Source of the DNA: Scytolyngbya sp. HA4215-MV1 | GTDB lineage: Bacteria > Cyanobacteriota > Cyanobacteriia > Leptolyngbyales > Leptolyngbyaceae | Reading direction: 5' to 3' | Assembly (NCBI GenBank): GCA_019359045.1 | Contig: JAHHIA010000003.1 | Coordinates: 310,001 to 374,000, forward strand | Length of the DNA: 64,000 bases | Part shown: piece after piece, positions 55,511 through 58,180 of the stretch | How the letters are laid out: each line of letters begins with the position of its first letter | Position numbering within the stretch: the first letter of the stretch is position 1 | Position numbers and translations under genes: made by a program | The notes under the pieces: generated by a model | The model's input: the letters and a program-made list of their open reading frames with translations, nothing else | What the model was told of the DNA's origin: nothing | Databases searched by the model: none

Positions 55511-56119
55511 CTAATTGTTGACTTCTGCCATCTCAATCACTTGACCATCGAGATCTTTGACTAGAAAATTAAGCGGTTTCTCGCGGCGGATTTTATGTTT
55601 AATCCCTCGCATCTGAACCCTTAAGAGAATCTGCTCGAGACAATCGCGATCAAAGCAGACATGCCGTTGGCGAGCCTTTTCGCCGGTACTGGCACCTGAA
55701 ATGATGTGGAGTTGGGTATTCTTCTTGATCTGATACCAGAGTCCATCAGAAGTCTTCATGCCTTTGACGACTGTCCCCACTGGGTTCCCTGACATATAGA
55801 GCGGATCTATGGCACTGACTCCAATTGATTGCTCATAGTTATAGTAGTAATGCAAGGGGACATCGGCGACTGGCAAATCTAGCAAACCTTCATAAAACCG
55901 TTGGGCGAGTTCTACATCCGACACCATGACTGTGTGGACCTTGGGTGCACTGGTGAGAAACATCCACATGGCACCTGCATAGGCTGCCAGCAGGATCACC
56001 ATAATGCCTTGAGTGGACAACAAGCCATCTAGCGGTAGCGACCAAAACGACGCTAATGGGAGTGACGAGTAGACAGAAGGAATATGATCGATTCCTGTAA
56101 TCATGAGTTCGCCGAGCAT
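55511..56119 (-). CDS. VOC-family protein with N-terminal membrane segment (202 aa)
   Basis: Residues about 37-57 are a transmembrane helix (GIMVILLAAYAGAMWMFL). A glyoxalase/bleomycin-resistance-like domain follows: VHTVMVSDVELAQRFYEGLL, RHVCFDRDCLEQILLRVQM and FLVKDLDGQVIEMAE. The combination of membrane anchor and VOC fold is uncommon. Starts at 56119 and 56104 are both possible; neither has a ribosome-binding site. It is divergent from the sigma-like gene. Substrate unknown. Confidence 0.72.
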   Translation of the reverse strand: MLGELMITGIDHIPSVYSSLPLASFWSLPLDGLLSTQGIMVILLAAYAGAMWMFLTSAPKVHTVMVSDVELAQRFYEGLLDLPVADVPLHYYYNYEQSIGVSAIDPLYMSGNPVGTVVKGMKTSDGLWYQIKKNTQLHIISGASTGEKARQRHVCFDRDCLEQILLRVQMRGIKHKIRREKPLNFLVKDLDGQVIEMAEVNN

Positions 56120-56349: not shown

Positions 56350-56412
56350 GTGTACACTAGGGGGCATTCCTATCAGGTGACCTGACGTGAGATCAAAGAC
56401 TGGGTGACCTGA
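56350..56412 (+). promoter_or_regulatory. Direct repeat and palindrome upstream of the sigma-like gene
   Basis: GGTGACCTGA occurs twice (56376-56385 and 56403-56412, 27 bases start to start), and the first copy lies in an odd palindrome TCAGGTGACCTGA (56373-56385). A further palindrome, GTGTACAC, is at 56350-56357. The block ends 37 bases before the GTG at 56450, a good place for an operator or for promoter elements read by an alternative sigma factor. Confidence 0.5.
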
Positions 56413-56449: not shown

Positions 56450-57115
56450 GTGCAAATTCCTCAATTTCCTGAAAGCAATCATCCGATCGTCAAAGCGCTC
56501 TTTCACTACAGCGATCAAGATCTCTTGACCCTATTTCAGCGCCACCCCGATAGCGGACAGTACTTCACCGCGATGTTCTGCCGCTATAGCCCTATGATTT
56601 ACACACTGATTCGCCATTCGGCACGATCGCCCGTCCAGGCAGATTATCTATTTGCCAACACCTGGCGGCACATTTTTCATGAATTGGGAGGGTTGGATCT
56701 GCGCCAATCGGTGGCTGAGGGGATGAACCTGCAAAGCTGGCTGATCAACGTCACTGCGATTTGCATTAATCGGGCAGATTTACCCCCGGTTGAGTCGATT
56801 CATTACTCGCTTCAAGCATCGCCGCCGCCGCTCTGGTGCTATCTGGAGCGAGCCTTGGATCAACTGCCTCCAGCTCTGCGACTCATGATTTTGATGGCTC
56901 AAACATTTCGTTGGAGCGAAACTCGCATTGCCGCTTATTTGCAGGCAGAAGGGGAAGTGATTTCACCTGCCGAAGTGAGATCGCAACTCCAAGAAGGATA
57001 CCAACTTTTGGAAGCTGCGCTGCCGGAAGATATCCGCACGATTTATCTCGATCATGCTCAGATGCCACCCGGTTTTGGTCGCAGTGAGCTGGTTCAGGAA
57101 GCCGGAATTGAATAA
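56450..57115 (+). CDS. ECF-like sigma-70 family protein (221 aa)
   Basis: A soluble helical protein that looks like a diverged sigma-70. A region-2-like part reads FTAMFCRYSPMIYTLIRHSA and ADYLFANTWRHIFHELGGLD. A region-4-like part reads ALDQLPPALRLMILMAQTFR, then WSETRIAAYL. The canonical -10 recognition residues are weak, so it may act as a regulator rather than a true sigma factor. Start GTG 56450. Its stop is followed directly by the GTG of the TPR gene, so the two are translated together, as ECF sigma factors often are with a regulator. Confidence 0.7.
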   Translation: MQIPQFPESNHPIVKALFHYSDQDLLTLFQRHPDSGQYFTAMFCRYSPMIYTLIRHSARSPVQADYLFANTWRHIFHELGGLDLRQSVAEGMNLQSWLINVTAICINRADLPPVESIHYSLQASPPPLWCYLERALDQLPPALRLMILMAQTFRWSETRIAAYLQAEGEVISPAEVRSQLQEGYQLLEAALPEDIRTIYLDHAQMPPGFGRSELVQEAGIE

Positions 57116-58180
57116 GTGAAATTTATGAGATACGCCGGACCGAGTATTGGCATGATGGCAATCACCTCTTTACTGGGGCTGCCTGTTGGGTTGGCACAGT
57201 CTCCTCCCAATGCCGAAACAACTCCTCCTACCCTGAACCAACAATTTAATTCGCTCTCCGTCGATCGTAAAGCAGCGAGAGACGCTGCCGATCGACTAAC
57301 TCTTCTGGGAGAGCAAAAAGCCCGTGAGCAACAATATCGGGAAGCGGTGACTGCCTGGTTACAAGCGCTGGATATTTACCGAGAAATTGGGGACTCTCCA
57401 GCCCAAGAGCAAGTTTACGAATATTTGGGTTTTACCTATGCGACCCTGGCACGCTACGACGTTGCTGAGGATGCTTTCCGCCGACAGTTAGCGATCGCGC
57501 GCTATAACCAGAGTTTTCAAGGGCAGATTTATGGACTCAACAACCTCGGTAACTTGCTGTTGAAACGCGGCAATCCTACTGCAGCGCAGGCAGTATTTGA
57601 AGAAGCACTCACCATCGCCAAAAATATCGAAAGTCAGGAAGGTCAGGGATTATCGCTCAGTAATTTAGGACAAGTCTCTGCAGCGAGAGGCGATAACGAC
57701 CAGGCGATCGCGCAATATGAAGCTGCTTTGACCTTCTTTCGGCGTGCTGGGGGTGAAACAAAACAAATCAGCACCTACAATAATTTGGGCAATGCCTATC
57801 ACCAAATGCAGCGATATCCGGCTGCAGTGACCTCTTATCGGTTTGCCCTTCGTTTGGCAAAAGACCACCGCGATCTCCCCAATCAATTTCAGGCACTTGC
57901 AGGCTTGGCAACGAGCTATACCGCCTTAGGTCTGTATTCAGATGCCTTGAGCTTTGTCAATCAGTGGTTAGCCCTGGCTGAATCTCAAGAGGATCTGCGC
58001 CAGCAACTCATGGCTCAACGATCGCTGGCCCAACTCTATTATCAAGCAGCGGATTATGCCTCTGCCCAAACTGCCTATCAACAAGCGATCTCAACTGCTC
58101 GCCTGCTCAACGATGAGCGAGCAGAGACCTTTCTGATTAATCAACTTGCCAGCTTGAAACTAGAAATTTTGTCCCGCTGA
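57116..58180 (+). CDS. Exported tetratricopeptide-repeat protein (354 aa)
   Basis: An N-terminal signal peptide or anchor (MRYAGPSIGMMAITSLLGLP, then VGLAQS), then six to seven TPR units, for example YREAVTAWLQALDIYREIGD, YGLNNLGNLLLKRGNPTAAQ, AIAQYEAALTFFRRAGG and ASAQTAYQQAISTARLLND. TPR arrays bind partner proteins; here probably in the periplasm. The first possible start is the GTG at 57116, with ATG 57125 three codons later. Coupled with the ECF-like gene. Confidence 0.88.
   Translation: MKFMRYAGPSIGMMAITSLLGLPVGLAQSPPNAETTPPTLNQQFNSLSVDRKAARDAADRLTLLGEQKAREQQYREAVTAWLQALDIYREIGDSPAQEQVYEYLGFTYATLARYDVAEDAFRRQLAIARYNQSFQGQIYGLNNLGNLLLKRGNPTAAQAVFEEALTIAKNIESQEGQGLSLSNLGQVSAARGDNDQAIAQYEAALTFFRRAGGETKQISTYNNLGNAYHQMQRYPAAVTSYRFALRLAKDHRDLPNQFQALAGLATSYTALGLYSDALSFVNQWLALAESQEDLRQQLMAQRSLAQLYYQAADYASAQTAYQQAISTARLLNDERAETFLINQLASLKLEILSR

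Follow-up and report, generated by a model that had tools for sequence, protein, structure and literature searches.

A cyanobacterial relative of ECF sigma factors genetically linked to envelope proteins: a sigma factor that may have been put to new use

A 64,000-nucleotide stretch of the genome of Scytolyngbya sp. HA4215-MV1 (the window) encodes a sigma-like protein which is a relative of the ECF sigma factors, whose DNA-gripping features seem to be gone and which is genetically tied to envelope proteins. Taken together, these properties suggest that it may be a sigma factor put to new use by evolution. We propose, with an even chance of being right, that a former ECF sigma factor has been reused as a cytoplasmic component in an envelope system, where it would dock on a membrane protein with a C-terminal SPOR-like domain (TM-SPOR). 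The fuller proposal is tentative and falls somewhat short of an even chance: an ECF-derived subunit without a promoter role would be docked on, or fused to, a peptidoglycan-facing SPOR-like membrane protein, perhaps ancestrally clustered with PspA/IM30 and now often with a TPR protein. If true, this would clearly exemplify how the fold of a transcription factor can move out of transcription, and it would caution that "sigma factors" recognised by weak domain matches may be misnamed. The linkage of a sigma-shaped protein with SPOR-like, PspA/IM30 and TPR proteins offers a testable entry into the way in which cyanobacteria watch or build their envelope.

The source genome is 6.6 Mb in size (G000) and the window lies on its contig 5. 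The features of the locus are collected in Table 1.

Table 1. Features of the sigma-like/TPR locus (window positions) and genomes in which TM-SPOR adjoins the sigma-like gene
Feature	Position	Strand	Basis or remark
Sigma-like protein gene	56450..57115	+	221 aa, GTG start
Sigma2-like domain (residues 18-116)	56501..56797	+	Recognisable by fold, not by Pfam
Region 2.2 equivalent ADYLFANTWRHIF (residues 64-76), incomplete ECF D..QE core-binding signature	56639..56677	+	Alignment
Inter-domain segment PPLWCY (residues 126-131), family mark	56825..56842	+	Alignments, nearly invariant
Sigma4-like domain (residues 130-191), recognition helix apparently no longer basic	56837..57022	+	Pfam, fold
TAA stop abutting GTG start	57113..57118	+	Direct reading of window letters
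Gene of TPR protein, most likely exported	57116..58180	+	354 aa; Pfam TPR_12 E 4.6e-41
Export-type N-terminal segment of TPR protein (~residues 1-28)	57116..57199	+	Hydropathy
TM-SPOR gene next to sigma-like gene			G045, G082 (f5); G060 (f20); G063, G077, G090 (f23); G095 (f29)

The first-pass annotation had described a TAA stop followed at once by GTG between the two frames. This junction is present, the letters of the window being gaattgaaTAAGTGaaattt with TAA at 57113-57115 and GTG at 57116, and Pfam matched the first frame, below cut-off, to a sigma factor family and the second to TPR. An in-frame ATG at 57125, three codons on, is an alternative start of the TPR frame and would leave a 9-nt gap, so that translational coupling of the two frames is only possible. 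The same annotation described the two proteins as translated together, which did not hold as a property of the pair beyond the window's genome: among 43 pair loci with a called TPR start (two further loci yielded no start), the gap is zero solely there and ranges from -4 to 237 nt in the other 42, where individual values may be off as the start caller is biased toward ATG and hydrophobic N-termini. Therefore, gene order and not joint translation is the property of the pair, and coupling was rejected as its hallmark. Upstream of the sigma-like gene, a 10-nt direct repeat GGTGACCTGA (56376 and 56403) was considered as a regulatory site and rejected; its core is doubled only in the window's genome, and of the 92 upstream regions compared with it a single one contains the core, in one copy. 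A promoter-like element common to many relatives of the same group was set aside, as it is absent from the window.

In Pfam, the sigma-like protein matches Sigma70_r4_2 with E 1.7e-4 and 21.6 bits, below the cut-off of 25.7, while Sigma70_r2 has no match in it; among 60 family members, Sigma70_r4_2 was obtained at E <= 0.05 in 40, and Sigma70_r2 is absent from the families listed for them. The combination by which ECF sigma factors are recognised, Sigma70_r2 with r4 or r4_2 above cut-off, is thus lacking in the sigma-like protein. Nothing reached a cut-off in NCBIfam, and a sequence search of the PDB with the family profile gave nothing significant, the best E being 0.16 for a TAL repeat protein, with a true ECF factor at 0.24. 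An AlphaFold2 model based on 60 sequences had a mean pLDDT of 91.3 and a pTM of 0.84, residues 204-221 being not confident. The top 26 rows of a Foldseek search with this model were all ECF sigma factors (best E 1.8e-3). The sigma2-like domain fitted region 2 of E. coli sigmaE (4lup_C) with Z 9.3 and an rmsd of 2.8 Å over 89 residues, a score to be read with the caution that values below about 13 are common among helical models with this structural aligner, and the sigma4-like region fitted known sigma4 domains to ~1 Å over 57-60 residues. Whole-chain fits were poor (rmsd mostly above 10 Å, query TM-score at most 0.34), which may reflect a different placement of the two domains. When the family profile was compared with a profile of the five ECF sigma factors of the same genome, a full-length match was found (probability 96.2, E 2.4e-9). 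By predicted model and profile kinship, the protein has the two-domain sigma2-sigma4 fold of ECF factors. The structural fits and the profile match together therefore identify it as an ECF relative. The family is well kept overall, members in alignment A1 being 39-75% identical to the window protein, and its PPLWCY segment was not seen in the five ECF sigma factors of the window's own genome.

The regions by which ECF sigma factors contact DNA and core enzyme were compared between 94 family members and 32 ECF controls, the latter consisting of 30 loci from 13 genomes minus three own-genome repeats (27 loci) plus the five own-genome ECF factors. A first control set selected by Pfam region 2 was dropped, its scores and sizes suggesting primary-type sigma factors. 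The net charge of the recognition helix has a median of -1 in the family (-5 to 3) versus +5 in the controls (4 to 7), and that of region 2.3-2.4 has a median of -2 (-3 to 1) versus +4.5 (1 to 6), the controls covering a few ECF types and the members of both sets not being independent. Judged by these medians, the basic -10 and -35 contact surfaces of ECF factors are missing from the family. For region 2.2, an ungapped register set against the own-genome ECF factors L106-L108 has Y at the D position in 94/94 members, versus D or E in all 32 controls, and A, G or S at the Q position in 94/94, versus Q in 27 of the 32. In the register of the profile alignment the acidic residue is kept (D/E in 89 of 93), but Q and E are again missing; the D..QE-like core-binding signature is incomplete in 94/94 members. 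Taken together, and as read from sequence, the DNA-gripping and core-enzyme contact features seem to be gone from the sigma-like protein. With the basic DNA surfaces and the core-binding signature lost, it is probably no normal sigma factor, and comparison of the 94 members with the 32 ECF factors gave no support to the view of the first protein as an ordinary sigma factor. The charge retained by some members (recognition helix up to +3) and the D kept in one register are points on the other side. The sections consulted of a survey of cyanobacterial sigma factors express doubt that families with r4_2 only serve as RNA polymerase subunits (PMC11119718).

The sigma-like protein is the single match to its family across the whole of its own genome. 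The family was found in 88 of 97 relatives (E <= 0.001), at 64 loci of a second genome collection and in at least 105 of 386 genomes of the phylum, where the best seven or fewer candidates per genome were scored and absences may be misses. The annotation had named conservation of the gene pair as a check beforehand, and the pair is conserved: a TPR gene lies downstream on the same strand within 1 kb in at least 51 of the 88 sigma-like genomes. This count required the same contig and strand with less than 1 kb between aligned ends (largest distance 746 nt, intervening genes being possible), and it is a lower bound as it used the better TPR matches per genome at an E cut of 1e-20, the others being inspected by eye for neighbours. 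The adjacent gene is the genome's best TPR match in 49 of the 51 pairs, and no adjoining TPR gene was found in 37/88 genomes, both among the matches listed. One further TPR match, 4.7 kb downstream of the sigma-like gene (G049), was left out of the count. A divergent copy of the sigma-like gene is present in G071. At 20 of the 64 loci from the second collection, the first gene called downstream belongs to the TPR family; over both collections, such a neighbour is present at 45 of the 90 loci with enough flank (four of 94 were not judged). The sigma-like/TPR pair is therefore conserved yet not universal, and the TPR-neighbour state shows at least ten changes on a quick, weakly supported tree. 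Other neighbours of the sigma-like gene recur as well, for instance ndh-like genes at seven loci.

A hydrophobic N-terminal segment was observed in all 43 start-called TPR proteins, with a caller that favours such starts. None of the 43 has a lipobox-like motif, and by simple hydropathy, used in place of a dedicated predictor, none has a second membrane segment. Going by these sequence features, the TPR protein is most likely soluble and exported, which agrees with its earlier description as an exported protein without a cytosolic domain. Such a protein would by itself be unable to contact a cytoplasmic sigma factor. Moreover, it has only the export-type N-terminus in place of the membrane span and cytosolic sigma-binding domain of membrane anti-sigma factors, and it therefore does not look like an ordinary member of that class. 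A plain ECF sigma factor with an exported TPR anti-sigma factor was rejected, since no cytosolic part is seen in the TPR protein, which is probably not the direct partner of the sigma-like protein.

A likelier partner is TM-SPOR. In three genomes (G086, G073 and G054), distant homologues of the sigma-like protein (23-33% identity) form the N-terminal part of frames of 387-461 aa, which continue into one strong membrane window and then a C-terminal SPOR-like domain. The N-terminal part of the fusions matched the family profile with probability 97.8 and E 8.8e-13 over 190 columns. TM-SPOR was reached by searching first with one of the fusions and next with the unfused membrane protein encoded in G045; the C-terminal part of the fusions matched its SPOR end (probability 95.5, E 1.4e-8), only this end and not the helix or the span being aligned. 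In seven relatives (Table 1), a bitopic TM-SPOR gene, with one span by hydropathy, lies directly after the sigma-like gene on the same strand, at a spacing of about 10 to 162 nt calculated from coordinates. The adjacency spans four family groups and the fusion occurs in a fifth. The seven cases belong to other genomes of the relatives set than the 94 loci taken from this set and the second collection, none of which has TM-SPOR adjoining. In G069, TM-SPOR is encoded on a different contig, the sigma-like gene being followed by a transposase-like frame, and this genome was not counted as adjacent. Among the matches listed, the neighbours of the 88 sigma-like genes are thus TPR in at least 51, TM-SPOR in seven, a fusion in three and none of these in 27.

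An alignment of 16 TM-SPOR proteins revealed a conserved N-terminal helix with the consensus L..AL.SLD..LEEEL.RYRR, more divergent in the f5 and f29 forms, and a DYLESSEELL-like motif ahead of the span in most of them. By eye, an EEL..F...WR-like helix precedes the span in two of the three fusions (EELAAFEAWR and EELAAFESWR), with a weaker RRFERWQ in the third. Pfam SPOR was obtained at E <= 0.01 in 12 of the 16 proteins (best 1.8e-5), the copy from the window's genome having E 0.0035, below cut-off; two of the fused proteins gave E 0.009 and 0.011 and the third no match. As a matter of gene association, the envelope link of the sigma-like protein is real. Of the envelope-sensing pair suggested at first, the connection to the envelope is thus supported, by way of a TM-SPOR that is fused in three genomes and adjacent in seven. 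A role of the TPR protein as immediate sensor or anti-sigma factor is not supported, given its apparent lack of a cytoplasmic part and the genomes in which no adjoining TPR was found among the matches listed.

The two genes also occur together across the phylum. With TM-SPOR taken at E <= 1e-18, a line picked after the data were seen, it was found in at least 82 of 386 genomes, 80 of which also carry the sigma-like gene and two do not, the counts being uncorrected for ancestry, SPOR-only proteins not fully separated and some matches covering the SPOR end only. In this search the best four or fewer candidates per genome were scored and absences may be misses; 25 of the 105 sigma-like genomes were without TM-SPOR at this level, 20 of them having a weaker match and five none at 1e-10. 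At E <= 1e-10, 100 of 109 TM-SPOR genomes also have the sigma-like gene, with nine exceptions. Among the 97 relatives, 79 have both, nine the sigma-like gene only (three of these being the fusions), three TM-SPOR only and six neither (Fisher p 3e-4, kinship ignored); the three with TM-SPOR only are fragmented assemblies, their contigs numbering 690 to 1150. Neither the sigma-like gene nor TM-SPOR at 1e-18 was obtained in the f2 and f30 genomes listed, four f30 genomes having weaker matches.

In the window's genome, TM-SPOR (474 aa, E 1.7e-90) is encoded on contig 23 (L263:2855-4279), unlinked to the sigma-like gene. Two PspA/IM30 genes come after it (PF04012, E 7.3e-59 and 2.6e-63). A PspA/IM30-like gene was found downstream of TM-SPOR, and on its strand, in 10 of 21 genomes examined, that is, in this genome and in nine of 20 others, as identified by motif within the available flank and with a Pfam check in the window's genome only. 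In G060, the sigma-like gene, TM-SPOR, a small hydrophobic protein and two PspA-like genes follow one another on one strand. A glyoxalase-like label for one neighbour gene was dropped, since it had no Pfam match. According to the sections consulted of a survey of PSP systems, PspA/IM30 proteins act in envelope stress and membrane remodelling (PMC11237479).

From these observations the following mechanism may be put forward. The sigma-like protein retains the sigma2-sigma4 fold and would no longer read promoters; as a cytoplasmic partner, it would dock on the N-terminal helix of the bitopic TM-SPOR. The latter would consist of a cytoplasmic helix, one span, a mostly proline-rich periplasmic stretch and the C-terminal SPOR-like domain, which probably touches peptidoglycan. 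Jointly, the two proteins might report on envelope state or organise it, and couple it to the cytoplasm or to envelope machinery, in whichever direction the signal would run. The exported soluble TPR protein could be a periplasmic companion in the lineage of the window and in many others. Against this model, it should be noted that TM-SPOR adjoins the sigma-like gene in just seven of 88 genomes and is unlinked to it in the window's own.

Other readings of the same data were weighed. The sigma-like protein might be a sigma mimic held by TM-SPOR which, on release, titrates the anti-sigma factor of a true ECF factor, as the sigma-like domain of PhyR titrates NepR in the general stress response of Alphaproteobacteria. 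Like PhyR (as described in the consulted part of PMC8103513), it has an ECF fold in which the promoter and core regions are degenerate, and the genome does possess true ECF factors, a frame beside one of them (L104) looking by eye like a bitopic anti-sigma factor. We nevertheless regard a mimic as rather unlikely: a receiver domain is absent from the Pfam matches, no anti-sigma gene was recognised beside the sigma-like gene within the window, and fusion to a membrane protein is easier to reconcile with a permanent partner at the membrane than with a decoy that is set free. The order of sigma-like and bitopic genes in the seven genomes resembles an ECF/anti-sigma pair, and it could instead point to a genuine ECF sigma factor that has diverged, TM-SPOR being the membrane anti-sigma factor that belongs to it. 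An HTH-like sigma4 remains in the protein, 4cxf (CnrH-CnrY) is among the fold matches, and the N-terminal helix of TM-SPOR could be a minimal anti-sigma domain, of which CnrY is an example. The non-basic recognition helix and region 2.3-2.4, the region 2.2 signature incomplete in every member and the covalent fusion to a membrane protein in three genomes make an active sigma factor distinctly unlikely.

The neighbourhood itself admits two further explanations. The sigma-like and TPR proteins could form the functional pair, with TPR co-transcribed for dosage or as a target and TM-SPOR loosely related; the frequency of the adjoining TPR gene, and its rank as best TPR match of the genome in nearly all pairs, would fit this, whereas the seeming lack of a cytoplasmic part in the TPR protein and the 37 genomes in which no adjoining TPR was found among the matches listed speak against it, and we consider such a pair very unlikely. 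Least probable of all, with only a slight chance, would be a neighbourhood without function, in which the house-keeping role of the sigma-like protein would have nothing to do with its neighbours. The 27 genomes with none of the three arrangements among the matches listed, and the recurrence of the ndh-like genes, are in line with it, but chance can hardly account for a fusion that is accompanied by adjacency in four further groups of the family. The preferred reading thus remains that of a former ECF sigma factor acting on the cytoplasmic side of an envelope system that includes TM-SPOR, at the even chance given above.

Compared with known systems, the protein resembles the ECF (group 4) factors of the sigma70 family in its sigma2-sigma4 fold and distant full-length kinship; it differs from them in having no Sigma70_r2 match, a sigma4 match below cut-off, loss of the basic surfaces and of Q (and E), and the PPLWCY linker. 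Pairs of an ECF factor and a bitopic anti-sigma factor such as CnrH-CnrY are similar in that, in seven genomes, the sigma-like gene is followed by that of a single-span protein with a conserved, putatively cytoplasmic helix. Here, however, the sigma-like member seems to be inactive on DNA, the membrane protein has a SPOR-like far end and three fusions exist. FtsN has a cytoplasmic N-terminus, one span, a long linker and a periplasmic C-terminal SPOR domain, and acts in the divisome. By hydropathy, the layout of TM-SPOR is alike (N-terminal part, one span, long linker and SPOR-like end), whereas its N-terminal part is long in most members and has conserved motifs of its own. The interest of the SPOR link lies in the reported absence of FtsN from cyanobacteria, where the consulted portion of one paper describes it as missing except for Slr0702 in Synechocystis (PMC7766704) and that of another as undetected (PMC4748335).

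The PspA/IM30-like gene after TM-SPOR in 10 of 21 genomes recalls the PspA/Vipp1 systems. In the portion consulted, the PSP survey describes, for cyanobacteria, both PspA pairs and thioredoxin, as well as a sigma factor tied to Toastrack operons, and that portion reports no SPOR partner (PMC11237479). In open-licence literature, no cyanobacterial paper was found that joins a sigma factor-like protein with a tetratricopeptide protein, and none that joins a cyanobacterial SPOR domain with an anti-sigma factor or the sigma-70 family, both findings carrying little weight. PhyR, as presented in the consulted part of PMC8103513, contains a sigma-like domain that is ECF-shaped with degenerate promoter and core contacts, and a degenerate ECF-like domain is likewise found in the present family. 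The receiver domain of PhyR had no Pfam match in the window's sigma-like protein or in six distant homologues. Unlike PhyR, the sigma-like protein described here is cyanobacterial and is tied to a membrane SPOR-like protein.

Upstream of the sigma-like gene, a perfect 10-nt direct repeat was found in the window; comparison of the regions upstream of the sigma-like genes revealed no conservation of this repeat in the relatives. A promoter-like element (GTGTCA, 17 nt, TATATA in the example CGTGTCAATTTGCCAAAAACGGCTTATATAT) is common to many relatives of the window's group, and no element of this type was found in the window.

The family of the divergent neighbour is present in 29 of the 65 loci, its usual place being a short distance 5′ of the sigma-like gene. 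A Pfam search with the window's member gave no match, and an N-terminal hydrophobic stretch was recognized by eye. In seven loci (L033, L045, L050, L052, L057, L058 and L062), ndh-like relatives lie near the sigma-like gene in divergent orientation; the reference for these neighbours is the genes resembling ndhA and ndhI in L045, some loci also having relatives of ndhG- and ndhE-like genes, with all four names assigned by eye from L045 alone.

Features of the window and related loci
Feature	Location	Strand or context
Neighbour gene, 202 aa	window 55511-56119	minus strand, divergent from sigma-like gene
Direct repeat GGTGACCTGA, 10 nt, perfect	window 56376-56385 and 56403-56412	upstream of sigma-like gene
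Promoter-like element, e.g. CGTGTCAATTTGCCAAAAACGGCTTATATAT	~40-60 nt 5′ of sigma-like start	many of L002-L027
Small hydrophobic protein, 116 aa	L267:4050-4400 (relative G060)	between TM-SPOR and PspA

In the cluster of G060, which contains the single-span membrane protein with a SPOR-like end (TM-SPOR), the hydrophobic protein is possibly a further member. In the relative G069 (L217, L220), a frame resembling a TnpB-like transposase by eye lies 3′ of the sigma-like gene, and TM-SPOR is located at the edge of another contig.

The window's own genome also carries a true ECF sigma gene (L104, contig C15), whose adjoining reading frame resembles, by eye, a bitopic anti-sigma factor. The layout at L104 looks like the usual ECF/anti-sigma arrangement, from which the sigma-like/TPR pair of the window differs.
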